Assembly: GCA_017609985.1 (NCBI GenBank)
Contig: JAFCCW010000005.1
Coordinates: 1-62,776, forward strand
Source of the DNA: Candidatus Iainarchaeum sp.
GTDB taxonomy: Archaea; Iainarchaeota; Iainarchaeia; Iainarchaeales; JAFCCW01
Reading direction: 5' to 3'
Length of the DNA stretch: 62,776 nt
Part shown: positions 14,465 through 62,776 of the stretch, piece after piece
Position numbering within the stretch: position 1 is the stretch's first letter
How the letters are laid out: the number at the start of each line of letters is the position of its first letter
Notes under the pieces: model-generated
Told to the model about the DNA's origin: nothing
The model's input: only the letters and a program-made list of their open reading frames with translations
Database searches by the model: none
Position numbers and translations under genes: made by a program

Positions 14465-15337
14465 TTACTGAATCTCAAACTGCACGCTGACTGTGGCAGA
14501 AAATTCAATGTCTCCAGGAGTTATTGGGGTTGGCGCCTGACTCATGCCCGCTTCTGAAACAGAATCCATTGCATAAGATCTTGCGTAATACGGTGTTGAA
14601 TAGTTTGAGCTTTCACTCGCACTATACACTTGTCCAACCGCGACTCCGAGACCGGAAGAAATGCTGTTTGCTTTTTCACGAGCGTTTTCTGCAGCTTCCT
14701 TCAATGCAAGTGTTTTTAGATCTGATTGGGCCTGCTTTGTTAACGCAAAGCTTACACTGCCAACCCTGTTTACTCCAGCCTGAACTGAAGCATCAATTAC
14801 AGCCCCAACACTGTCAAGGTTTCTGACTGTTACCTTGATTGTGTTGGTTGTCCTGTAGCCAATTGACTCAGACTTTCGCAAGACATCATTCCACTGAAAA
14901 TCCTCTCTTACTGTGTAAGAACTTGTTTCAATGTCTTCTGAAGCAACTCCAGCAGACTCTAGCGCATCCATTACCTTGCTTGCGAGAACAGCATTGTCTG
15001 CTTGACTCTTGCTTGCGCTCTTGTCAAGAGTTTCAATGCTTAGGGTTATGTAAGCAAGCTCTGGACTGGCAGTTTTTGTCACAGTCCCTGAAACAGAAAT
15101 CAATCTGAGCCTGTCTTCTGACTCGTCTTCAGCAAAGCTTAGAATTCCATCCTCATAACTTGGAATAGAACCCTCGGTTACATTACTTGAAGACTTTTCA
15201 AGATAACCTGGCAGGTCCACAAGCACTTGTTCTTGTCCAGTAACATCCTGCCCTGCTGAAAATAAAACAAAGCCGGATAAAACAATCAATGCAGCAGCAA
15301 TGATTGACGCTGGTAAAATTAAATTATTTTTATCCAT
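14465..15337 (-). CDS. SIMPL-domain (DUF541) exported protein
   Basis: The 290-residue protein begins with an N-terminal membrane helix (ILPASIIAAALIVLSGFVLFSAG). A short linker is followed by a SIMPL/DUF541 domain (~residues 78-290). The domain has the conserved phrases ISVSGTVTKTASPELAYITLSIET, SQADNAVLASKVMDAL, SSYTVREDF and EAAENAREKANSISSGLGVAVG. Bacterial relatives such as YggE are linked to oxidative-stress defence, but the molecular function is not known. It is expected to be anchored outside the membrane. A strong hairpin terminator follows it. Confidence 0.88.
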   Translation of the reverse strand: MDKNNLILPASIIAAALIVLSGFVLFSAGQDVTGQEQVLVDLPGYLEKSSSNVTEGSIPSYEDGILSFAEDESEDRLRLISVSGTVTKTASPELAYITLSIETLDKSASKSQADNAVLASKVMDALESAGVASEDIETSSYTVREDFQWNDVLRKSESIGYRTTNTIKVTVRNLDSVGAVIDASVQAGVNRVGSVSFALTKQAQSDLKTLALKEAAENAREKANSISSGLGVAVGQVYSASESSNYSTPYYARSYAMDSVSEAGMSQAPTPITPGDIEFSATVSVQFEIQ

Positions 15338-15437
15338 AATATTCTCACCTCTTGAAAAAAGAAATGCAATAACTTTCTTAATAATTCTTCGTTTTTATTA
15401 GGAAAAAGCCTACAAAAATATCCTTTAACAAGACAAT

Positions 15438-15484
15438 TTTAAGCATTATCTCCCATACCAGCCTATAGGCAATGGTGAAGTTAT
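15438..15484 (+). repeat. Hairpin repeat, copy 1
   Basis: This is the first of four dispersed copies with the pattern AAGCATTATCTC, ~20 variable bases, then GGCAATGRTGAAGTT. In this copy the centre holds the palindrome GCCTATAGGC. It lies in the 434-bp gap between the SIMPL gene and the first Fic gene. That gap also holds a small perfect hairpin (GTCCGA AAAG TCGGAC, near 15648) and the operator repeats, and no gene that I can support. Confidence 0.6.
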
Positions 15485-15697
15485 TGTCGGAGAAAGCGTA
15501 GGCAACGACACTAATTTTTGGAAAAATAAGGGAAATGGAAACTTGAAGTGAAATTATACGAACTAATTGCCAAAAGAAGGTAAAGCACATTAAGGTAATT
15601 AGGTGGCAAAATTGACACAAAAGGAGTCTGTCCGAGAATTGGGACAGCGTCCGAAAAGTCGGACAAGGCAAGTAGGCTGACAATCTTATTGCTTTTT

Positions 15698-15766
15698 GTT
15701 AGCCTAAAAGCCAAAAACAAGCAAAATTTTAGGCTAACTATTTAAAATAACTTTGTTAGCCTAAAT
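15698..15766 (+). promoter_or_regulatory. Operator repeats framing the TATA box of the first Fic gene
   Basis: GTTAGCCTAAAA (15698-15709), its exact inverse TTTTAGGCTAAC (15727-15738) and a third copy, GTTAGCCTAAAT (15755-15766), are spaced 28-29 bp apart. The TATA box (TTTAAAATA, about 15741-15749) sits between copies two and three. ATG follows 6 bases after the last copy. The pattern is an inverted repeat around the core promoter, as for an autorepressed gene. Binding by the Fic protein or a partner is inferred. Confidence 0.75.
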
Positions 15767-15771
15767 ATTAT

Positions 15772-16710
15772 ATGCAATTACGTACAAAGAAAGTGCACGG
15801 GAAAAAGTACTATTACCTTGACCTTAGTTACAGGATTTTATCCAAATTAAAAACCTTCAGCAAATACATTGGAGCAAAAAAGCCTTCGAAAAGAGAACTC
15901 AACAGGATTGAAGAAGAATTCAAAGTAGAGACCATTATAAAACTTGCAGGAAAAGAATACACAAACGATCTAATTTCCCAGGATGATTTGATAAAAGCAC
16001 TTCTTTTCAAGGAAGCGTTTAACAAAAAATTTGCATCCCTTTCAAAAGTGCAAAAGAGAAAATATGAGGTTGACAGCACAATTCTTTTTACTCTAACAAC
16101 GCTCACAACAGAGGACGTTGACGTAAGCTTGGATGACGTAGTAAATGCGTTTGAAAAAGACCGACAGTTGAGCATGCGAGAGCAAATAAGTAAAAACATG
16201 CTTAAGGCAGTTGAATCAATAAAAGAAAAACACAAATTGAATAAGCAATACTTGCTGGAATTGCATAAAACGATAATGTCAAGCTTTGAGGATAAAACAC
16301 CAGGCCAGACAAGAAGCAGGCAGGTTTATCTTCATAGGCAAGACCCAAAAAACCCCTTAGGAATTGAAATCGGCTACAGGCCACCACAGCATGGCAAAAT
16401 AGATACGCTACTTGATGATTTCGTTGAATGGTACAATTCAACAAAACTAAACCCCGTAGAAAAGGCGGCGATTGCCCATTACAAAATATACAAAATCCAC
16501 CCTTTTCTTGACGGCAACAAAAGAATTTGCAGGCTGATATTCAACAAAACCCTGTTGGATGAAGGATTTCCCCTGCTTAACATTTCACTGAAGAAAGAGC
16601 CGTACTTCCAAACCTTGATTGATTCTGTTGAAAAAGACACGCCAAAGAAGCTTGCGGAATTTACGCTCAAAGAATTCCTAAGGCAAACAAAAGCATTCCT
16701 GAAACAATAA
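15772..16710 (+). CDS. Fic-domain protein, Doc-like GNKR variant
   Basis: The 312-residue protein has an N-terminal ~50-residue module (KKVHGKKYYYLDLSYRILSK...YIGAKKPSKRE) also present in the second Fic protein. A helical Fic core carries the active-site motif HPFLDGNKRICR at about residue 243. Canonical AMP-transferring Fic proteins have HPFxDGNGRxxR. The GNKR form seen here is the one found in Doc kinases, so the chemistry may be phosphorylation, or the site may be altered. The usual inhibitory motif (S/T)xxxE(G/N) is replaced by DSTILFTLTT. No antitoxin gene is visible next to it. Its TATA box is framed by inverted repeats. Confidence 0.85.
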   Translation: MQLRTKKVHGKKYYYLDLSYRILSKLKTFSKYIGAKKPSKRELNRIEEEFKVETIIKLAGKEYTNDLISQDDLIKALLFKEAFNKKFASLSKVQKRKYEVDSTILFTLTTLTTEDVDVSLDDVVNAFEKDRQLSMREQISKNMLKAVESIKEKHKLNKQYLLELHKTIMSSFEDKTPGQTRSRQVYLHRQDPKNPLGIEIGYRPPQHGKIDTLLDDFVEWYNSTKLNPVEKAAIAHYKIYKIHPFLDGNKRICRLIFNKTLLDEGFPLLNISLKKEPYFQTLIDSVEKDTPKKLAEFTLKEFLRQTKAFLKQ

Positions 16711-16713
16711 ACA

Positions 16714-16760
16714 TTTAAGCAACCATCGCCATACGATACAATAGGCGATGATGAGGTGAA
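16714..16760 (+). repeat. Hairpin repeat, copy 2
   Basis: Copy 2 reads TTTAAGCAACCATCGCC, variable bases, then GGCGATGATGAGGTGAA. Its stem CATCGCC/GGCGATG (16724-16730 with 16744-16750) is a perfect 7 bp although the sequence differs from the other copies, so pairing rather than sequence is kept. It lies directly after the first Fic gene. Confidence 0.6.
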
Positions 16761-16856
16761 AACTGGGTTTGTCGGATGATGATGACAAAGCAAAAATTCG
16801 TGGAACTCTAAACAAATGATTGGATTGTGGCTGAAGGAAAGAAAAAGGTAAAAATC

Positions 16857-17957
16857 ATGAAAAATGAATTAAACAAGTTTTTTATTGTATTAACCATTTT
16901 TGTTATAATTTCTTTTTGTTTATTGAATGGTTGTTTGCAAGAAGCTTCAAAAGAAAAACCATTAATCGAATCTGAAAACAGTTTGAATAAAGAGGTTCCA
17001 GCCAAAGATTTAACCAATGAAGCAAACCAGCAAAAAGAACCAGAAGAAATTAAAGAAGAAGACATTGATTGCACAGATTTCGATGGCAACAAAGAAGAAT
17101 GCTTATTGCACCAAGGCTGTAAATGGAGTTCGGATAGAAACGAATGCGATTCAACCAGCCTAATGAAAGACGAGGATGAACAATTTGAAGAAGATGAAGA
17201 AGGGTTCATGCAAGAGTTAGAAGAGATTATTGTTCCCCAAAACCCATCCAATGAAATATGCAAAAAACTACCCTTGTTAAAGTCCTTAAGTTATGGCAAC
17301 AGGTATTACTGCCTGGCCATAGTAAACCACAATGCCGAATTTTGCAGGGGAATGGACGAAGAAAACGAGGAGAATATTTGTTTAGCAATAGTTAAGAAAG
17401 ACTCATCACACTGCAAAAAAATAAAGGATGTTTCTGCAAAACATGTTTGCTATTACCAACTTGCAGCAATAAGCAAAAACATTAATTTTTGTGACGACAT
17501 TGATTATGATGAAAATGAAAGATTACAGTGCTACTTCAATTTTGTAAGCAATTTATACTGGTTTGACAAATCTGAAGAAATAAAAACAGAATACTGCAAT
17601 AAGTTTCCTGCTGGCGAGTCTGACAAAAGCACTTGTTTAGCCTTCAAAGAAAGAAATGCTTCACTCTGCAAAAACAATGTTAATTGTTTAACTTTTTTTG
17701 AACAAGAAGCACCATTCTGTGAAAACAAAAGAATTATATTAAAAGATTGTGTAAGAGATAGAGCTATGACCAGCAAAGATGTTTCAATTTGTGAAAAACT
17801 CTCTGGAAAAAAAAGAGATGATTGCATTGGTGATTTTTGCACTCATATAGAGTTAGATGTTGCTATTTGTGATAAGATTACAAGCATTAAAGAAAAACAA
17901 TCTCGTTATATAGAACTTGCCATAAACCTTGCTAACAATGTGAGGGAGAGTAACTAA
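16857..17957 (+). CDS. Second lipoprotein with tandem paired-cysteine repeats
   Basis: ATG at 16857 gives a proper signal peptide and lipobox (ISFCLLNGC); an in-frame GTG at 16827 would add ten residues in front of the signal and is less likely. After an acidic linker the protein has an EEDIDCTDFDGNKEECLLHQGCKW segment. About eight Cys-paired repeats follow (YCLAIVNHNAEFCRGM, ICLAIVKKDSSHCKKI, VCYYQLAAISKNINFCDDI) of the same type as the protein at 10474. It is probably an extracellular, disulfide-stapled helical array. It is one base from the propeller gene that follows, so the two are likely co-expressed. Confidence 0.75.
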   Translation: MKNELNKFFIVLTIFVIISFCLLNGCLQEASKEKPLIESENSLNKEVPAKDLTNEANQQKEPEEIKEEDIDCTDFDGNKEECLLHQGCKWSSDRNECDSTSLMKDEDEQFEEDEEGFMQELEEIIVPQNPSNEICKKLPLLKSLSYGNRYYCLAIVNHNAEFCRGMDEENEENICLAIVKKDSSHCKKIKDVSAKHVCYYQLAAISKNINFCDDIDYDENERLQCYFNFVSNLYWFDKSEEIKTEYCNKFPAGESDKSTCLAFKERNASLCKNNVNCLTFFEQEAPFCENKRIILKDCVRDRAMTSKDVSICEKLSGKKRDDCIGDFCTHIELDVAICDKITSIKEKQSRYIELAINLANNVRESN

Positions 17958-17958
17958 A

Positions 17959-19851
17959 ATGAAAAAAACAATTAGTATCTTAGTTTTAATTTGTTTGATT
18001 GGAATTGTTTTTGCAGAAAACAAATTTTCAACAGAAACCACGCCTCAATTAACTGCAGAGGAAAAAAAAGATGCTCCAGACTTATATGCGGGAGATGTCT
18101 ATCCTGCATGGGGAGTTCCCTGCACAAATTTCACTTATTATGTTACATATAAAGACAAGGAGGGTAGAGCTCCAGAATACGTTAGGATAAATTTGAACGG
18201 AGAATGGCACGACATGGTAAAAAGCAAAGGCGATTACAAAACCGGAGCAACATACACCTATAACATTGTTCCAGATTCTGGTAAAGCACTTTTTTATTAT
18301 TATGAAGCCAGCAACGGAAAAGGAAAAGCAAGAACATCCATAATAGATACTCCTGATTTAGGACCACTGCTTTTATCAGAAAAATTCAACAACAACCAAA
18401 TAATTTTGCTGGACAAGCAAGGAAACCTTGTCTGGAATTATGATATTGGAAGGGATTGGGTTGAAGCAGTGGCAATTTCGCAAGACGGGAACTACATTGC
18501 TGTTGCAACACAAATTTATTTTCACCTCTTTTCAAAAGACAGCAACAAGCCCATATGGTCGTTCTGCAAAAAATGCAAACTGCCGCCAGTGGTTAATGAT
18601 GCTTCAAGAGGAATTGCAATTTCGGCAGATGGAAAATATGTTGCAGGAAGTTTTGACAAACTTTATTTTTTTGAAAGAGACAGTAACACACCTGTTTGGA
18701 TTGCGGATATAGGAGCAGCAGCTGTTGGAATTGACATGTCGGATGATGCTAGTGTGATTGCAGCAGGAACAGGCAACAGCGAAAATAACCGCGGACAAAA
18801 GATTTTATTATTTGACAGAGAAGGAAACAAATTAGGAGAATACAAGCCAAAGCATGAAGGTTATAGCCAAACCGGGGATTTTTACCAACCAGATGTTACT
18901 CCTAACGGCAAATACGTGGCAATTTCCACTGGCTGTCCCGATAGAAGAGCTTATTTGTTTTCAGGAAACGGGCAATTATTATTCAGAAGCAAACAATTAA
19001 CCGAAGATTCACCAGCACACAAGTCAGCAATTTCTGATGATGGCAAATTGATTGCGTACTCATTAGACCACTCAGTAGGAAAAGAAATACTGTTCTTATT
19101 TGACAACAAAGGAAACAAATTATGGAGTTTTTCTTCTCCAACTGACAGTACTGCAAGAGCTGTTTCCATATCCGGCAACGGAAACTATATTGCAATTGGC
19201 ACAACCACGGGCAACATTTACTTTTTTTCAAAAGACAGCAGCGAACCAAAATGGAGCTTTACTGATTATGGCTTCTTTTCCTGTTTTGGAGACATAAAAC
19301 TAAACCAAGATGGAAGCTTATTAGCAGCAGGCGGCACAACAAAAAAAATTTACCTTTTCTCAAAAAACAGCAACAAGCCACTGTGGGAATACAATACAAA
19401 CACTTGGGTAAACAAAATAGATTTCAGCGGTGAATACATTGTAGCAGGAACAGGCCCAAGAGAATACTTTGGCGAAGGAAGCAGCTTAACTGAAGACAAG
19501 ATTGAATGTAAAGAAATAATCCAGCCTCCTCCAATGGAAGAAACTCTTGGAAAATGCGGTGATGGAATATGCATAGAACCACAAGAAAACAAGGAAAACT
19601 GCCCACAAGACTGCACTCCTGCAATAAAACAAGAAGATAACAAAAAAGAATTTGATAACAGTGCTAAAGCTGTTTGCGGAGACGGAATTTGCGAACCCCC
19701 TGAAACCAAAGACTTCTGCTGTGAAGACTGTGGAAACTGCTACGAGGACAAGGAAATAAAAATTGAAAAAAACATTGCAGAAGAAAAAAGTTTTTTTGAA
19801 AAAATACTGGATTTCCTTTTCGCCTTGTTTGACATCTCAGCTAATAACTAA
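17959..19851 (+). CDS. Secreted beta-propeller protein with CGDG Cys motifs
   Basis: A signal peptide (ending IGIVFA, residues 1-19) precedes a ~100-residue N-terminal domain (APDLYAGDVYPAWGVPCTNFTYYVTY). Then come about seven WD40/PQQ-like propeller repeats with the recurring phrase ISxDGxYIAxGT...LFSKDSNKPLWSF (~residues 130-515). Two Cys modules, CGDGICIEPQENKENCPQDC and CGDGICEPPETKDFCCEDC, follow (~535-600). The end is short, hydrophobic and aromatic (FFEKILDFLFALFDI). CGDG modules are common in exported archaeal proteins of DPANN-like genomes. It sits one base after the Cys-repeat lipoprotein, and the pair probably works at the surface. No enzyme motif is visible. Confidence 0.78.
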   Translation: MKKTISILVLICLIGIVFAENKFSTETTPQLTAEEKKDAPDLYAGDVYPAWGVPCTNFTYYVTYKDKEGRAPEYVRINLNGEWHDMVKSKGDYKTGATYTYNIVPDSGKALFYYYEASNGKGKARTSIIDTPDLGPLLLSEKFNNNQIILLDKQGNLVWNYDIGRDWVEAVAISQDGNYIAVATQIYFHLFSKDSNKPIWSFCKKCKLPPVVNDASRGIAISADGKYVAGSFDKLYFFERDSNTPVWIADIGAAAVGIDMSDDASVIAAGTGNSENNRGQKILLFDREGNKLGEYKPKHEGYSQTGDFYQPDVTPNGKYVAISTGCPDRRAYLFSGNGQLLFRSKQLTEDSPAHKSAISDDGKLIAYSLDHSVGKEILFLFDNKGNKLWSFSSPTDSTARAVSISGNGNYIAIGTTTGNIYFFSKDSSEPKWSFTDYGFFSCFGDIKLNQDGSLLAAGGTTKKIYLFSKNSNKPLWEYNTNTWVNKIDFSGEYIVAGTGPREYFGEGSSLTEDKIECKEIIQPPPMEETLGKCGDGICIEPQENKENCPQDCTPAIKQEDNKKEFDNSAKAVCGDGICEPPETKDFCCEDCGNCYEDKEIKIEKNIAEEKSFFEKILDFLFALFDISANN

Positions 19852-19876
19852 AAAAAGCAATAAAGAAACAGAAAAT

Positions 19877-20022
19877 ATGTCAAGCAGAGAGAAGGAGTAA
19901 CAACTATTCAACTTGAAAAGAAAACAAGAGACAGGTTGATAGATTTGGAAAAGAATGGCGAAAGCTATGATAAAATAATTAATAACCTGGTTGATTTTTG
20001 GAAGAAGAGAAAAAAGAGATAG
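19877..20022 (+). CDS. Ribbon-helix-helix-like mini-protein before the second Fic gene, start region broken
   Basis: From 19897 a 41-codon frame reads VTTIQLEKKTRDRLIDLEKN then GESYDKIINNLVDFWKKRKKR. This strongly resembles the short VapB/RHH-type archaeal antitoxin-like family (TTIQLxxxTRxRLxxLxxxGETYDxIIxxLL). No start codon exists in that frame. ATG at 19877 (MSSREKE) runs into TAA at 19898, and one extra base before GTA would fuse the two as MSSREKE-VTTIQLEKK. So either a base is missing here, or the gene is dead. Its stop lies against the first operator repeat of the Fic gene, so it may encode the DNA-binding partner of that gene. Confidence 0.55.
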
Positions 20023-20111
20023 TTATCACTGGTTCTATGCACAATGTTGTTTTTTGTGATAACAACGAGTTATCACTGAGTTAAGTTTAAATACTGTTTT
20101 CAGTGATAACT
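20021..20111 (+). promoter_or_regulatory. Operator repeats framing the TATA box of the second Fic gene
   Basis: AGTTATCACTG occurs at 20021-20031 and 20068-20078, and its exact inverse CAGTGATAACT at 20101-20111. A core GTGATAAC is at 20056-20063. The TATA box (TTTAAATA, 20086-20093) lies between the last two. The sequences differ from those of the first Fic gene, but the arrangement is the same. Autorepression by the Fic protein or the mini-gene product upstream is inferred. Confidence 0.8.
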
Positions 20112-20115
20112 AAGT

Positions 20116-21129
20116 ATGAGTCGTATTATCTCTAGAACTGTAAAAGGCAAGAAATACTACTATTTAGAAGAGTCTTTCAAGCAGCGCCAAAAATGGGTTA
20201 AGGAAAGCGTTTACTTGGGGTCCGAAAAACCAGACAACACTCGGTTGTTGCCTGCTTTTGAAGAGTTAAAGAAAAAATGCAAGAAAAAAGAGCATGTTGT
20301 TCTTGTTCCGCCGCTAACAGAATTTATCTCAAACCAGAGAGCAGCCAAGCTGCAAAAAGCTGCAGAAAACAAGAAAGAATTTCTAAAAAAACTTACCAAA
20401 TCCCAAAGAGAGGAGTTTGTAAGAAGAGAGCGGATAACATTCATAACAGACTCCAATGCAATAGAGGGGAGCTCGCTCACATACTCTGAAACATCAAGAA
20501 TCTTAGAACAAGAAAAACAAATCAAGAAATATGAAAAAAGAAACATTATAATCACTGGCCTTGACAGAGAAGAACAAGAAGCATTAAACCTCAAAGCATG
20601 CCTTGACAGATACGATAAATACATGAAAATAAACCAAAAAATATCGCAAAAAATGATTCTGCAGCTGCATTACATTCTACTGGAAAAAATATCCGGCTAC
20701 GAACAATACCAAGGAATTTACCGGCCAGTTAAGGTTTACATTAGGGGGTCAACCCACGAGTTTCCACTACCACAAGAAGTACCTGGACTAATGAAAAAAC
20801 TAATTCAATGGCTGGCAGATAACGAGAAACTCATGCACCCTGTAGAGTTGGCTGCAAAATTCCACACAAAATTCACAGGAATCCACCCGTTCGCTGATGG
20901 AAATGGAAGAATGGCAAGGCTCCTAATGAATTACATCCTGCAACAAAAAGAATTCCCATTCACAAACATCCCACTAAAAAGAAGGCAAGCATACATGAGA
21001 ACACAGGCAGCAGGAAACAAAGAAAACTACAAACCATTCACCCAATTCCTCTCAGAAGAGCTAATAAAACAGCATTTAGGCGAACACAAGAAACCAAGCG
21101 AGCGCAGGTGGCCACAAACCACAAAATAG
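20116..21129 (+). CDS. Fic-domain AMP-transferase with class II inhibitory motif
   Basis: The 337-residue protein has the same N-terminal module as the first Fic protein (KGKKYYYLEESFKQRQKWVKESVYLGSEKP). An inhibitory motif SNAIEG (~residues 113-118, type II, N-terminal) matches (S/T)xxxE(G/N). The canonical active site HPFADGNGRMARLLMNY is at about residue 257. It should transfer AMP from ATP to a Ser, Thr or Tyr of an unknown target, with self-inhibition by Glu117. A flap region (YIRGSTHEFPLPQEVP) for target binding is visible. It is preceded by an RHH-like mini-gene and an operator array. Confidence 0.92.
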   Translation: MSRIISRTVKGKKYYYLEESFKQRQKWVKESVYLGSEKPDNTRLLPAFEELKKKCKKKEHVVLVPPLTEFISNQRAAKLQKAAENKKEFLKKLTKSQREEFVRRERITFITDSNAIEGSSLTYSETSRILEQEKQIKKYEKRNIIITGLDREEQEALNLKACLDRYDKYMKINQKISQKMILQLHYILLEKISGYEQYQGIYRPVKVYIRGSTHEFPLPQEVPGLMKKLIQWLADNEKLMHPVELAAKFHTKFTGIHPFADGNGRMARLLMNYILQQKEFPFTNIPLKRRQAYMRTQAAGNKENYKPFTQFLSEELIKQHLGEHKKPSERRWPQTTK

Positions 21130-21154
21130 GGTCACCCAGTAACAAAACAACCAA

Positions 21155-21221
21155 TTAAAGCATTATCTCCTATACATTTCTGTGGGCAATGATGAGGTTA
21201 ACACCTACCGAGCGCGCCACT
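21155..21221 (+). repeat. Hairpin repeat, copy 3
   Basis: Copy 3 (AAAGCATTATCTCC, variable bases, GGGCAATGATGAGGTTAAC) follows the second Fic gene. Its last 25 bases (21197-21221) are identical to those of copy 4 at 21899-21923. The stem CATTAT/ATGATG with an internal mismatch and a closing CC/GG is possible. Confidence 0.65.
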
Positions 21222-21290
21222 ATTTTAATATTATTGGCGGCAAACAGTTGATGCAAAGAAATTTATTATAGTTCCAAACTAATTATCTAA

Positions 21291-21512
21291 ATGAACAAAA
21301 CACAATTTTTCGGAGTCCTGCTTGTAATCATTGGGCTGGTTCTGCTGACAGTTTTTCCGATTTTTGGAATCGTTGCAGGAGAATGGCTTGTTAAATACTC
21401 TGTTGTCGGAGGCTGGGCTATTGCAATTGTGGGAGCAGGAATTCTAATTGTTTCATTAGTAATTGAAAGATTGGAAGACATCAAGAAAGAAAAATTCAAC
21501 AAAAATTTTTGA
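21291..21512 (+). CDS. Small two-helix membrane protein
   Basis: The 73-residue protein has two strong membrane helices (FFGVLLVIIGLVLLTVFPIFGIV and VGGWAIAIVGAGILIVSLVI) and a basic C-terminal tail (ERLEDIKKEKFNKNF) that should face the cytoplasm. ATG is preceded by an AT-rich promoter region without a visible leader. The YbjQ-like gene follows after 9 bases with a GAGGTG ribosome binding site, so the two probably form an operon. The family is unknown; similar small helical hairpin proteins often accompany UPF0145 genes. Confidence 0.6.
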   Translation: MNKTQFFGVLLVIIGLVLLTVFPIFGIVAGEWLVKYSVVGGWAIAIVGAGILIVSLVIERLEDIKKEKFNKNF

Positions 21513-21521
21513 GGTGAAAAA

Positions 21522-21836
21522 ATGATTATTGTAAACACAGACTTTATTCAGGGAAAACAGATAACTGAAACACTTGGGATAGCAAAAGGAAACACTATAA
21601 GAGCAAAATGGTTTGGAAAAGACATCGTGGCAGGATTAAGACAGGTTGTCGGCGGAGAGCTAAAAGAATACACTGAAATGCTGACAGAAGCAAGAAAAGA
21701 ATCCATGCAGAGAATGGTTGAAGAAGCAGAAGCAATGCGCGCAGATGCAATAGTCAATGTAAGGTTTACAACATCGCAGGTAATGGCTTCAGCAGCAGAA
21801 ATACTTGTTTATGGAACTGCAGTAAAGTTGAAGTGA
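21522..21836 (+). CDS. YbjQ/UPF0145-family protein
   Basis: The 104-residue protein is a full-length member of the UPF0145 (YbjQ, DUF74) family: MIIVNTDFIQGKQITETLGIAKGNTIRA, VVGGELKEYTEMLTEAR, then EEAEAMRADAIVNVRFTTSQVM. Family members form stable pentamers and have been called heavy-metal binding on weak grounds. No biochemical role is established. A GAGGTG ribosome binding site precedes the ATG, and a small membrane protein gene lies 9 bases upstream. Confidence 0.88.
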   Translation: MIIVNTDFIQGKQITETLGIAKGNTIRAKWFGKDIVAGLRQVVGGELKEYTEMLTEARKESMQRMVEEAEAMRADAIVNVRFTTSQVMASAAEILVYGTAVKLK

Positions 21837-21856
21837 AAAACAGGAAAGGCAAGAAT

Positions 21857-21923
21857 ATTAAGCATTACCTCTAATAAAATTTATTAGGCAATGACGAAGT
21901 TAACACCTACCGAGCGCGCCACT
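21857..21923 (+). repeat. Hairpin repeat, copy 4
   Basis: Copy 4 (TTAAGCATTACCT, CTAATAAA/TTTATTAG palindrome, GGCAATGACGAAGTTAAC) follows the YbjQ-like gene. Its last 25 bases are identical to those of copy 3. Confidence 0.65.
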
Positions 21924-22066
21924 CGTGCTGTGACGAAACAACTCAACACCGAGCCAAATATTTATGTTCTGCTGAAAGCGGAACGATGTATGCAGCATTG
22001 CCTGATGCAACAGGCGCTCAACACCGCGCCTATTAGTTTTTAAAAAAAACAACAGGCTAGCCAAGA
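21924..22066 (+). other. Gene-free stretch with short repeats and a hairpin
   Basis: The stretch after hairpin repeat 4 holds no supported gene. It contains CAACACCGAGCC and CAACACCGCGCC, which echo the tail of copies 3 and 4. It also contains the hairpin GCCTGATGCAACAGGC (near 22000). A similar hairpin, GCCTGATACAGCAGGC, lies just before tRNA-Trp at 33159. Part may be a decayed repeat or a small RNA. Confidence 0.4.
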
Positions 22067-22081
22067 TTGGAGAATAATAAA

Positions 22082-22576
22082 ATGAAACCTACTAATAAAA
22101 CAAGAAGAAGGAAACTCCGCAGGGAGCCTGATAAAGTGCATATTGCCAAAGGCTGGTGGCAGGGGCATTCCATATTCCTCAGCCCCGCGCTGTTAATCAG
22201 AAAGGGCAGGTCAGAGATTCGTGGCATAAAGTCAAGAGTTGATTTTCCTGGAAATTATGGGAGAAAATTTAAAAGAGGCGAGAAAGTGCTTCAGCTATAT
22301 CTTAATTCAACAAACCCAAGGGAAACAATTGAACTCATGAAAAAGTTTGAAGAAAGCAGGGAAGAACTGAGGAAAGCAGGATATGCAGGATTTTTTGCAG
22401 ACACCCCAAACCAGGTTGTTGCAAACGCTCTTGAAAGAAGAGGGATGGAAAAAGTGAGAACACACTGGGGCATAAGAGCAGTTAACAAGTATTTGTATGC
22501 AAACGATATAGTGCTCTCAGGATTTCCAGCAAGGCATATTTTGGGAAGAATGAGACGCCTTGTTTCAAAACTTTGA
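22082..22576 (+). CDS. Unknown basic protein, 164 residues
   Basis: I do not recognise this family. The start is set at the ATG at 22082; a TTG 15 bases upstream would add five residues. The N-terminus is very basic (NKTRRRKLRREPDK), which would suit nucleic-acid binding. Residues ~18-45 read AKGWWQGHSIFLSPALLIRKGRSEIRG. The C-terminal half is helical and ends in GFPARHILGRMRRLVSKL. No catalytic motif or membrane helix is visible. Its 3' end overlaps the convergent tgt gene by 12 bases. Confidence 0.55.
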   Translation: MKPTNKTRRRKLRREPDKVHIAKGWWQGHSIFLSPALLIRKGRSEIRGIKSRVDFPGNYGRKFKRGEKVLQLYLNSTNPRETIELMKKFEESREELRKAGYAGFFADTPNQVVANALERRGMEKVRTHWGIRAVNKYLYANDIVLSGFPARHILGRMRRLVSKL

Positions 22577-23659
22577 ACCTGAAAGAAACTTTTTTTCAGA
22601 GAACTTTCCTTCAATTATTGATTCCCTTATTTCATTCATCAGATTGTGAACAAAAAACAGGTTGTGGAGAGAAAGCCACTTGCGTGCATTCTCTTCCTTT
22701 GTTCGGAACAAGTGGTGGAGATAAGCGCGGGAATGAGTAGCACAAACAGGGCAATCGCATTTGCTATCAAGCGGCTTTAAGTCAAATCTGTAACGCGCAG
22801 CATCAATGTTAATGTTTCCCTTACTTGAAAAAGCCCGGCCATGCCTTGCTGTTCGCGTTGGAAACGCAGAGTCAAAACAGTCAACTCCAAGAGAAACAGC
22901 TTTCACTAGCTCGCGGATTGAACCAACACCCATTAGATAGCGCGGCTTGTTTTCGGGAAGCAGAGGAATAGTATGCTCTACTGTCTTAATCATCTTGGAG
23001 AGAGATTCTCCAATCGCAAGCCCGCCAATTGCATAACCGTCAAAGTCAAGGGAAGCAATCTGGTTAGTGCTTTTAGTGCGAAGCTTTTTGTCTGTTCCGC
23101 CTTGAGAGATTCCAAAGAGAAGCTGTTTCTTGTTCTTGTGAACTTTTTTGCAGCGCTCTGCCCACTGAAAGGTGCGCTCTGAAGATTCACGAAGGCGATT
23201 GAGAGAAGAACCTGCAGTCGGAACATCATCAAGGCACATTGCAACATCGCTTGAAAGCGTGTTCTGGATTTTGATAGATTGCTCTGGAGAAAAAATAGAT
23301 TTTGTTCCAGTGAATGGATTGCGAAAGAGAACACCGTCTTCCTCAAGCTTGAGACAAAAGTCTGGACTCAAAACCTGGAATCCGCCAGAGTCAGTAAACA
23401 GACTTTTTTTCCAGGACATGAACTTGTGTAAGCCGCCTGCTTTTTTGATTACTTCAAGACCAGGCTTCATTGAAAGAATGAAAGCATTCGAGATAATACA
23501 TTGGGTTCCTGCAGAAAAAACTTCTTCGTGAGAGAGAAGCTTGACGCTTCCCTTTGTTGCAACAGGCATGAAGAAAGGCGTTTGGATTTTTGAGTGAGCT
23601 GTTTCTAAAATTCCAGCCCTGGCTTTTCCAGATTTTGCCTGAATTTTAAAGGATTTCAT
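22565..23659 (-). CDS. tgt: tRNA-guanine transglycosylase, bacterial/queuine type
   Basis: The 364-residue protein is a full TGT without the C-terminal PUA part that archaeosine-type enzymes carry. Motifs are TPFFMPVATKGSVK, GGLHKFMSWKKSLFTDSGGFQV (base-binding Asp and FQ), GISQGG, GGLAIGE, and CFDSAFPTRTARHGRAF with the nucleophile Asp in FDS. The zinc site is CDCPVC with the final His in SLHNL. The line CDCPVCATHSRAYLHHLF is the bacterial pattern. It exchanges guanine in tRNA for a deazaguanine; the bacterial form acts at G34. It overlaps the end of the unknown gene at 22082 by 12 bases. Confidence 0.9.
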   Translation of the reverse strand: MKSFKIQAKSGKARAGILETAHSKIQTPFFMPVATKGSVKLLSHEEVFSAGTQCIISNAFILSMKPGLEVIKKAGGLHKFMSWKKSLFTDSGGFQVLSPDFCLKLEEDGVLFRNPFTGTKSIFSPEQSIKIQNTLSSDVAMCLDDVPTAGSSLNRLRESSERTFQWAERCKKVHKNKKQLLFGISQGGTDKKLRTKSTNQIASLDFDGYAIGGLAIGESLSKMIKTVEHTIPLLPENKPRYLMGVGSIRELVKAVSLGVDCFDSAFPTRTARHGRAFSSKGNINIDAARYRFDLKPLDSKCDCPVCATHSRAYLHHLFRTKEENARKWLSLHNLFFVHNLMNEIRESIIEGKFSEKKFLSGSKF

Positions 23660-61786: not shown

Positions 61787-61929
61787 ACTGTATCAGGGGG
61801 AATTTGTGAAACACTTTCATACACATAACTGTTTGCGATTTATAAAGGCGTTTTGGTGCAGTAGCCAATTAGTGCAAGTGTTCTCCTGCGAGAATTTAAA
61901 TGCTTTTCGGTTGAGGAAAAGTGAAACAC

Positions 61930-62776
61930 ATGAGAAAGAAACTGCACGACTATGAAAGGATTCTAGAGCGCGAATTCGAGCTATTGAAAGAGACTCCTAT
62001 CTCCAAGGAAAACAAGGAGAAAATAAAGAAATACAACTTCTGGAGCATTTCCCGCGAACTCAGCGACGCAAGAGTGATCCGAAATTCCAACACGCTGAGA
62101 AAGATAGCAAAGATTTTGAAGAAAGACTTTGAAGAAGCCACAGAAGAAGACATGCAAAAACTATTGATACGCATCAAAAAACAAGGCTATGCAGAGGCAA
62201 CAATTGACGGCGACAAAGCAGTCCTCAAGCACTTCTATAAATGGCTGAACGGCGGAGAAAAATACCCTGACTGCGTGAAATGGATAAAACGCAAAGGACT
62301 GAAAAACAACAAGCTGCCGGACGAAATGCTGGAACCCGAAGAAGTCCAGAAAATAATCAAAGCAGCAAACAACAAAAGAGACAAAGCAATAGTTTCGCTC
62401 GTCTGGGAGTCCGGTGCACATATCGGGGAAATAGGCGGAATGCAAGTAAAAAACGTTGCCTTTGACAAAACAGGCTGCAGGGTAATGCTGGATGGAAAAA
62501 CAGGAATGCGAAGAATAATGCTGATAAACTCAGCGCCCTACCTGGTTCAATGGATGAACGAACACCCAAAATCGGAAGACCCACAGGAACCGCTCTGGAT
62601 AACCCTGAAAAACCCGAAGAAAAAACAGCTCAGCTACAGATATTTCACGAAGATGCTCAAAGCCACTGCAAAAAGAGCAGGAATAAAAAAGCCAGCCAAC
62701 CCCCCCACTTCAGGCACTCAAGAGCAACCTGCCTCGCAAACAAGCTCACAGAAGCCCAAATGAAAGAATACTTCGG
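61930..62776 (+). CDS. Tyrosine recombinase (XerA/XerC-like), frameshifted and cut by window edge
   Basis: The N-terminal half is a core-binding SAM-like domain (~residues 1-120). The catalytic half follows, with RDKAIVSLVWESGAHIGEIGGMQVKNV and DGKTGMRRIMLI (Lys in KTG). The usual Arg of the first box (GARIGE) reads His. After KKPANPP the frame turns to TSGTQEQPASQ and ends at 62763, while the next frame reads PHFRHSRATCLANKLTEAQMKEYF, the proper HxxR box. One extra C in the C7 run at 62700-62706 restores it. ATG at 61930 or GTG at 61921 may be the start. It would catalyse site-specific recombination if intact. Confidence 0.8.

Follow-up and report, generated by a model that had tools for sequence, protein, structure and literature searches.

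Intergenic repeats in a Diapherotrites genome probably mark the junctions between mobile gene cassettes inserted at a C/D box small RNA gene

Introduction

A stretch of 62,776 nucleotides from Candidatus Iainarchaeum sp. (contig JAFCCW010000005.1, hereafter the window; G000:C35 in our numbering, where G, C and L stand for genomes, contigs and loci) carries four short repeats around two genes encoding Fic proteins. A preliminary description, made from the sequence of the window, placed these repeats in the gaps between gene groups, saw a conserved hairpin stem in them, and proposed that they are recombination sites or the borders of a cassette-like array of a kind other than integrons. What are these repeats, and do the genes between them move? 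The comparison of the window's genome, a draft of 1.16 Mb, with its relatives indicates that they are probably the junctions of an array of mobile gene cassettes, anchored at the 5' end of a gene for a C/D box small RNA (sRNA). The preliminary description was largely right about cassette borders, and wrong about a conserved stem within each junction.

The element and its distribution

All four copies were found, on the plus strand and in intergenic DNA, starting at positions 15437, 16713, 21154, and 21856. The blocks that they share (15433-15483, 16709-16759, 21150-21200, and 21852-21902) are 65 to 76% identical to copy 1, and copies 3 and 4 are 83% identical across 64 bp. This is far above chance: the tail GGCAATGATGAGGTTAACACC had no match in 100 shuffles of the window, and the profile E-values of the copies range from 1e-6 to 2e-11. 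They bracket the genes as first described, with Fic-1 between copies 1 and 2, a group running from a lipoprotein to Fic-2 between copies 2 and 3, and the YbjQ pair between copies 3 and 4; the Fic, YbjQ, and SIMPL assignments are backed by Pfam. Four further copies lie on contigs C25, C28, and C30 of the same genome. The anatomy of the element was drawn from an ungapped alignment of 43 copies and from column statistics on 116 copies. A variable left half (-31 to -1), with a TATA-like TTTTAA about 30 nt upstream, precedes a core of 14 bp, GGCRATGATGAGGT (0 to +13), which is nearly invariant in the 116 copies and is followed by a variable right half. The block of about 52 nt common to the copies of the window corresponds to the left half (about 31 nt), the core (14 nt), and the beginning of the right half.

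Within the phylum, 38 of 87 genomes carry the element; all 38 are from one order, and none of 12 genomes from elsewhere in the phylum has it. Carriers among the relatives are metagenome-assembled genomes (MAGs) of Candidatus Diapherotrites and the complete genome of archaeon GW2011_AR10 (AR10), which has seven sites. Most genomes are draft MAGs, several of them from a common sampling project; misbinning cannot create the key comparisons because these lie within single contigs. Where a locus has several copies, they follow each other end to end and agree in orientation (117 of 118 copies, 63 loci). Only 4 of 83 lie inside an open reading frame (ORF) of at least 90 amino acids, ORFs being called with a simple caller, and a same-strand gene precedes 60 of the 83, usually with its stop less than 100 nt away. 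Records labeled Falkowbacteria or Chloroflexota also contain these archaeal arrays (L071, L081, and L082, JAFCBY; L077, DAOWAC) and are probably mislabeled MAGs that belong with Diapherotrites. The end of G030:C78 and the start of G030:C49 (L096, L051) carry an identical site sequence; the site is therefore probably an assembly break point, and arrays may be under-represented in MAGs.

Cassettes at different loci and in different orders

The modules between copies measure 0.4 to 5 kb and contain mostly one to four genes, usually without a recombinase. Their cargo includes Fic, YbjQ, AbiEii, ParE, and YoeB toxins, as well as HNH proteins, DNA methylases, AAA_14-DUF4143 ATPases, a Na/H exchanger, glycosyltransferases, a GH15 enzyme, and a TATA-binding protein. 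The preliminary description had suggested comparing the gene content between copies in related genomes, and at shared loci this content differs. Such is the case at the locus that runs from the SIMPL gene over the sRNA to the RNase HII region (G000, G023, G046, G032, G007, G017), at the one between GGGPS (PcrB) and an RPA-like gene (G023 and G032, of one genus), and at bud32 (G000, G023, G048, G047). Conversely, the same cassette is found at different loci. A glycosyltransferase/GH15 cassette lies after bud32 in G000 and at the GGGPS locus in G023, with 96% identity over 2579 bp, compared with 78% for the bud32 flanks of the two genomes, and it starts 2 nt before the core (-2) in both. It is also present at the SIMPL locus of G047 (92 to 98% identity), i.e., at three loci in three genomes. 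Another cassette, k65-k66, is shared by G023 and G046, which belong to one genus: it shows 99% identity over 1291 bp, from core position 0 to core position +21 in both, and the order of cassettes is permuted between these genomes. The YbjQ pair of the window recurs in the arrays of G017, G032, and G048. Arrays in one orientation, permuted orders, and identical cassettes at different loci agree with the proposal of recombination sites, or borders resembling those of miniature transposable elements, in a cassette array.

Two other explanations can be confronted with these data. The repeats could be a duplicated family of C/D sRNA genes, or a shared promoter or regulon element that merely happens to lie between genes; the left halves are indeed promoter-like, and some of the copies contain an sRNA, whole or in part. 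Yet this cannot account for identical cassettes at different loci, permuted orders, and borders at the core, nor for the swapping of halves and the inverted ends described below, and it is contradicted by the 99% identical core-to-core cassette of G023 and G046. We find it scarcely credible. Alternatively, these could be canonical integron cassettes without an integrase (CALINs), which were reported in other archaea (PMC9668308) and are built in the same way, from short cassettes on one strand that have their site 3' of the gene and carry toxin-antitoxin cargo. However, none of 113 sites has the attC motif RYYYAAC...GTTRRRY, whichever strand is read (shuffled mean 0.7), in agreement with the preliminary description; the conserved part is central instead of forming outer R boxes, and no fold is conserved among the junctions (mean z = -0.7). 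Because the attC boxes are missing, we consider this explanation refuted, and CALINs are almost certainly not what these arrays are.

Exchange at the core and inverted cassette ends

Where does one cassette end and the next begin? Copies with a common right half turn identical at -3 to 0, and copies with a common left half cease to be identical at +10 to +19; the two halves swap independently, at the core. These borders of identity place the crossover in GGCRATGATGAGGT. Many types of right half are the reverse complement of a left half: 532 of 666 matches of 12-mers between right and left halves fall in one register, with the dyad centered on core base +10, compared with a total of 74 matches, and at most 8 in any register, for shuffled left halves. 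The pairing between the ends of the same cassette was reached by only 4 of 2000 shuffles, and that across the same junction by 1339 of 2000. The symmetry lies between the two ends of one cassette and not inside one junction, which the preliminary description overlooked. Copy 2 does contain the stem that it proposed, CATCGCC/GGCGATG. In the set of 43 copies, however, only 59.1% of the cells pair at this stem, against 58.5% after shuffling, and RNAalifold predicted no base pairs for the junction alignment. A conserved hairpin in the element is rejected on these grounds, and the stem is a single instance of the inverted GGCRATG motif of some left halves. When cassettes with such inverted ends are circularized in silico, their sites form long hairpins (z = -3.5 in L091 of AR10, -3.4 in L052, and -2.6 in L037). 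The median score of the left half is 1.5 for first copies, 18.2 for later ones, and 0.4 for solitary ones (first versus later, p = 0.026); poor left halves in first copies are what one would predict were the left half a part of the cassette and the chromosomal target the core only.

The fixed dyad, the conserved positions +7 to +13, and the borders at the core may reflect a tyrosine-recombinase site. Could transposition produce them as well? Non-autonomous transposons, casposon-like or of the DDE type, with terminal inverted repeats and one fixed target, would leave the core as a target-site duplication of 14 to 15 bp. Casposon target duplications are on the scale of 14 bp (14-15 bp), the size of the shared core, and the cassettes do carry terminal inverted repeats. 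Nevertheless, a duplication should match at both ends of the insertion, but divergence begins at +14, and a dyad centered at +10 would need a symmetric stretch ending near +17. Cas1 is present in 4 of 31 genomes and, among the array genomes searched, only in G001; it is absent from the complete AR10 and from G023, G007, G017, G030, G015, and G000. Homing to one sequence at several loci, in one orientation, fits conservative recombination better. Hence, transposition is unlikely, and casposons and MICE in particular were rejected, given the lack of Cas1 in most array genomes and an end geometry that is wrong for a duplication of 14-15 bp. Neighboring genes could also be shuffled without a dedicated recombinase, through homologous recombination or transformation at scattered copies of the 5' region of the sRNA. 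The core would then be repeated and conserved because the sRNA is functional, and no recombinase is linked to the arrays. However, the identity across the exchange is only about 14-17 bp, which is very short, and the fixed register of the inverted ends and the constant orientation are left unexplained, making this process very improbable.

The sRNA gene, probable anchor of the arrays

In many relatives, the core runs on into a canonical archaeal C/D box sRNA with the layout GGC-RATGATGA-GGTTAACACCTN-CTGA-spacer-TGATGA-NNNAACTCAACTC-TGAGCC. Judged by its sequence, copy 4 of the window is a complete, previously undescribed gene of this type, with the C, D', C', and D boxes in order, a terminal stem, and a full-model score of 52.9 bits. 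C replaces T in all four boxes, e.g., CCGA in the window where most relatives have CTGA. Rfam found only tRNAs in the window, plus one weak chance match on a tRNA, and did not recognize copy 4. The T-to-C changes in paired boxes (ATGACGA with CCGA) are found both in the window (21887-21955) and in L062 (6951-7018), and they look like a replacement of the U-U pair in the kink-turn. In G013 and G001, the D' guide pairs with AGGUGUUAACU in the A-loop of the 23S rRNA (an 11-nt match) and the D guide with AGUUGGGUUGAG in the same rRNA (9 to 11 nt); the two targets are 29 nt apart in the A-loop/peptidyl transferase center. The 23S rRNA of G000 contains the same guide target, a pairing that was read by hand from the two sequences. 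The N+5 rule predicts U2552 and G2581 as the target sites (E. coli numbering, counted along the aligned large-subunit rRNA region), and the sRNA would guide their 2'-O-methylation. Modification at the A-loop positions U2552/G2553 is widely conserved (PMC7994747). In most arrays that have the full sRNA, this copy lies furthest downstream (the window, L038, L045, L046, L049, L053, L054, L056, L156, L163, and L175).

In the window, the array and its flanks are laid out as follows.

14465 to 15337, minus strand: left chromosomal flank, SIMPL-domain gene (Pfam); same flank in G023 and G047
15437 to 15467, plus strand: copy 1, left half, with TATA-like TTTTAAGCATTA
15468 to 15481, plus strand: copy 1, recombination core GGCAATGGTGAAGT
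15482 to 15520, plus strand: copy 1, right half of type alpha (TATTGTCGGAGAAAGCGTAGGCAACGACACTAATTTT), also in G000:C28, G023, and G001
15772 to 16710, plus strand: cargo of cassette 1, Fic-1 (Pfam PF02661, 1.1e-20)
16713 to 16743, plus strand: copy 2, left half, immediately 3' of the Fic-1 stop
16744 to 16757, plus strand: copy 2, core GGCGATGATGAGGT
16758 to 16795, plus strand: copy 2, right half of type beta, also in G001 and AR10
16857 to 21129, plus strand: cassette 2 region with Cys-rich lipoprotein, beta-propeller, RHH mini-gene, and Fic-2; possibly more than one original insertion
21154 to 21184, plus strand: copy 3, left half
21185 to 21198, plus strand: copy 3, core GGCAATGATGAGGT
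21199 to 21221, plus strand: copy 3, right half, an sRNA 5' fragment (D' guide and D' box) that diverges afterwards
21291 to 21836, plus strand: cargo of cassette 3, small membrane protein and YbjQ; the pair is also in arrays of G017, G032, and G048
21856 to 21886, plus strand: copy 4, left half, the predicted sRNA promoter
21887 to 21955, plus strand: copy 4, complete C/D box sRNA (core 21887-21900; C box 21891-21897, D' box 21910-21913, C' box 21930-21936, D box 21949-21952; stem GGC/GCC)
22085 to 22576, plus strand: right chromosomal flank, 163-amino-acid gene without Pfam match
22565 to 23659, minus strand: tgt, beyond the 163-amino-acid gene in the right flank

Search for a recombinase

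Which enzyme could move the cassettes? Proteins with PF00589 were listed genome-wide, and in the fetched arrays they were found only at G030:C49 (the IntI-specific domain was not searched), where a cassette encodes a tyrosine recombinase directly after the site. A second integrase family, of which about 20 members were compared, was rejected as a candidate: only the member at G030:C49 lies beside a site, and there is no clade tied to the arrays. XerA-like proteins are present in nearly all genomes, and serine recombinases (PF00239) in 0 of 31. The P. abyssi-type dif pattern is absent from the main array genomes, and this pattern may not be the dif of these hosts. The contig end truncates a tyrosine recombinase gene at 61915-62760 of the window, and a related gene is truncated close to where contig C37 (L116) stops; that contigs break off at integrase genes may point to mobile elements left out of the assemblies.

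A model of cassette insertion

By the sequence comparisons, each cassette spans about 0.4-5 kb. Its 3' end is a left half, with the TATA-like box followed by GGC and the beginning of the C box, and its 5' end is a right half; in many cassettes, the two are inverted repeats whose dyad has a fixed position, +10 in the core. We suggest that a recombinase provided in trans could recombine a putative circular form of the cassette with a core, either that of the chromosomal sRNA gene or that of a cassette inserted before. Strands would be exchanged inside GGCRATGATGAGGT, most simply in ATGAGGT (overlap from about +7 to +13), with the imperfect arms TAGGCRATG and TAACACCTA flanking the overlap and additional inverted arms on the cassette. 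Insertion would split the sRNA gene between the C box and the D' guide: the guides, the D boxes, and the 3' end would stay the sRNA's own, and the presumed promoter, the 5' stem, and the C box would come from the cassette. The left end of the cassette holds a promoter-like stretch, GGC, and the beginning of the C box, from which the gene would be rebuilt. Repeated insertion, together with excision and shuffling, could then generate arrays in one orientation with the intact sRNA as their downstream end. Recombination is probably trans-acting, site-specific, and of the tyrosine type, at the 5' end of the sRNA gene.

Several observations weigh against this model. No recombinase is linked to the arrays, AR10 has only a XerA-like enzyme for its seven sites, and the integrase of G030:C49, the only one next to a site, has no counterpart beside other sites. 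Matched ends are kept in a minority of cassettes only, and several sites of AR10 are degenerate. The arrays of L037 and L044 end without a full sRNA, and in L039 a full sRNA lies at the upstream end. Neither circles nor excision were seen in these genomes, most of which are draft MAGs. Finally, the preliminary description had held that the same genes without repeats in relatives would speak against cassettes, and this was partly found: close homologues of Fic-2 (50 to 78% identity) occur in genomes without the element. The second module, of 4.4 kb, may therefore be composite, and not every array gene is cassette-borne in all cases. A broader proposal, to which we give slightly less than even weight, is that these arrays form a separate class of platform, in which recombinase-free cassettes insert serially at a gene guiding rRNA methylation and contribute a fresh promoter and C box each time. 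A host enzyme, either XerA or an unrecognized recombinase, would move them in trans, and an essential guide RNA would thereby anchor an archaeal counterpart of the integron.

Other observations on the cargo

Both Fic genes are preceded by repeats, namely, inverted repeats of the TTAGCCTAAA type and GTCCGA hairpins before Fic-1 (15630-15763) and three GTGATAAC/GTTATCAC repeats before Fic-2 (20045-20112); they look like operator sites for autoregulation. The region of the RHH mini-gene (19897-20021) matches positions 603-721 of G000:C30 (73%) and 1314-1420 of L045 in G032 (77%), both array contigs, which suggests a separately mobile small antitoxin-like gene. Cys-rich repeat lipoproteins are a recurrent cargo (16857-17957 in the window; L037, 2083-6967; L044, 3861-4562; L052, 3723-4361). 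A gene for a TATA-binding protein lies within a cassette in L038 (7796-8386) and L156, and its position differs between two genomes of the same genus.

Comparison with known systems

The capture of gene cassettes is known from integrons and dif modules (PMC9668308, PMC6449649). If our interpretation is true, the Diapherotrites arrays add a third cassette design, unrelated in appearance, in DPANN archaea, and a C/D box guide-RNA gene joins the known landing sites of mobile DNA. It would also explain how toxin-antitoxin pairs, Fic proteins, transporters, and sugar enzymes are traded among very small genomes. Its signature, GGCRATGATGAGGT with a shuffling left half, can be searched for, and the content and order of cassettes are directly testable in metagenomes. 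Among the open-access papers searched, a scope leaving subscription journals and preprints outside, we found none that connects integration with C/D box sRNA genes and none that describes this integron-like gene-swapping platform; its novelty is therefore provisional.

The RNA component has close relatives. Archaeal A-loop C/D box sRNAs (PMC7994747) have the same C, D', C', and D boxes and a guide to the equivalent of U2552 in the 23S A-loop, whereas copy 4 has no Rfam match, has U-to-C changes in all four boxes, and serves as an insertion site. TIGR arrays, which reportedly also resemble C/D RNAs (PMC12045711), were set aside, as whole genes separate the present copies. The use of a conserved small-RNA gene as an attachment site has a precedent in pTN3-like integrases, whose target is the 5' half of a tRNA gene and which provide that gene with a promoter (PMC8371274). 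In both cases, the 5' part is replaced, the gene is restored, and the promoter would come with the element, but here the target is a C/D box sRNA gene and the cassettes lack integrases and lie in tandem arrays. Neither sRNAs nor snoRNAs are mentioned in that review of archaeal tyrosine recombinases.

Casposons (PMC4046053, PMC10359463) share terminal inverted repeats, a site-specific target, and a short target repeated at both ends, and differ in the Cas1 that most array genomes lack and in the geometry of the ends. The modules bounded by dif sites (pdif) in Acinetobacter, moved by XerCD (PMC6449649), also have traits in common with the present arrays: they are free of recombinases, include toxin-antitoxin pairs, and occur as one module at different places. 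They are bounded by the site of a chromosome-encoded recombinase, which may be the case here as well. Our copies, in contrast, have no recognized dif-like site, keep one orientation, and form chromosomal arrays in archaea. Integrons and CALINs (IntI, attI, attC) share small cassettes in tandem and mostly in one orientation, interchangeable and variable in order, with a site at the 3' end, cassettes shared between arrays, and toxin-antitoxin cargo. Archaeal integrons have standard attC sites (PMC9668308), whereas the present arrays have no attC motif but a central 14-bp core, a C/D sRNA as anchor, and cassettes with a promoter-like left half, and no IntI was found in them. On the model proposed here, the system would work like an integron or an array of dif modules and would be neither of the two.

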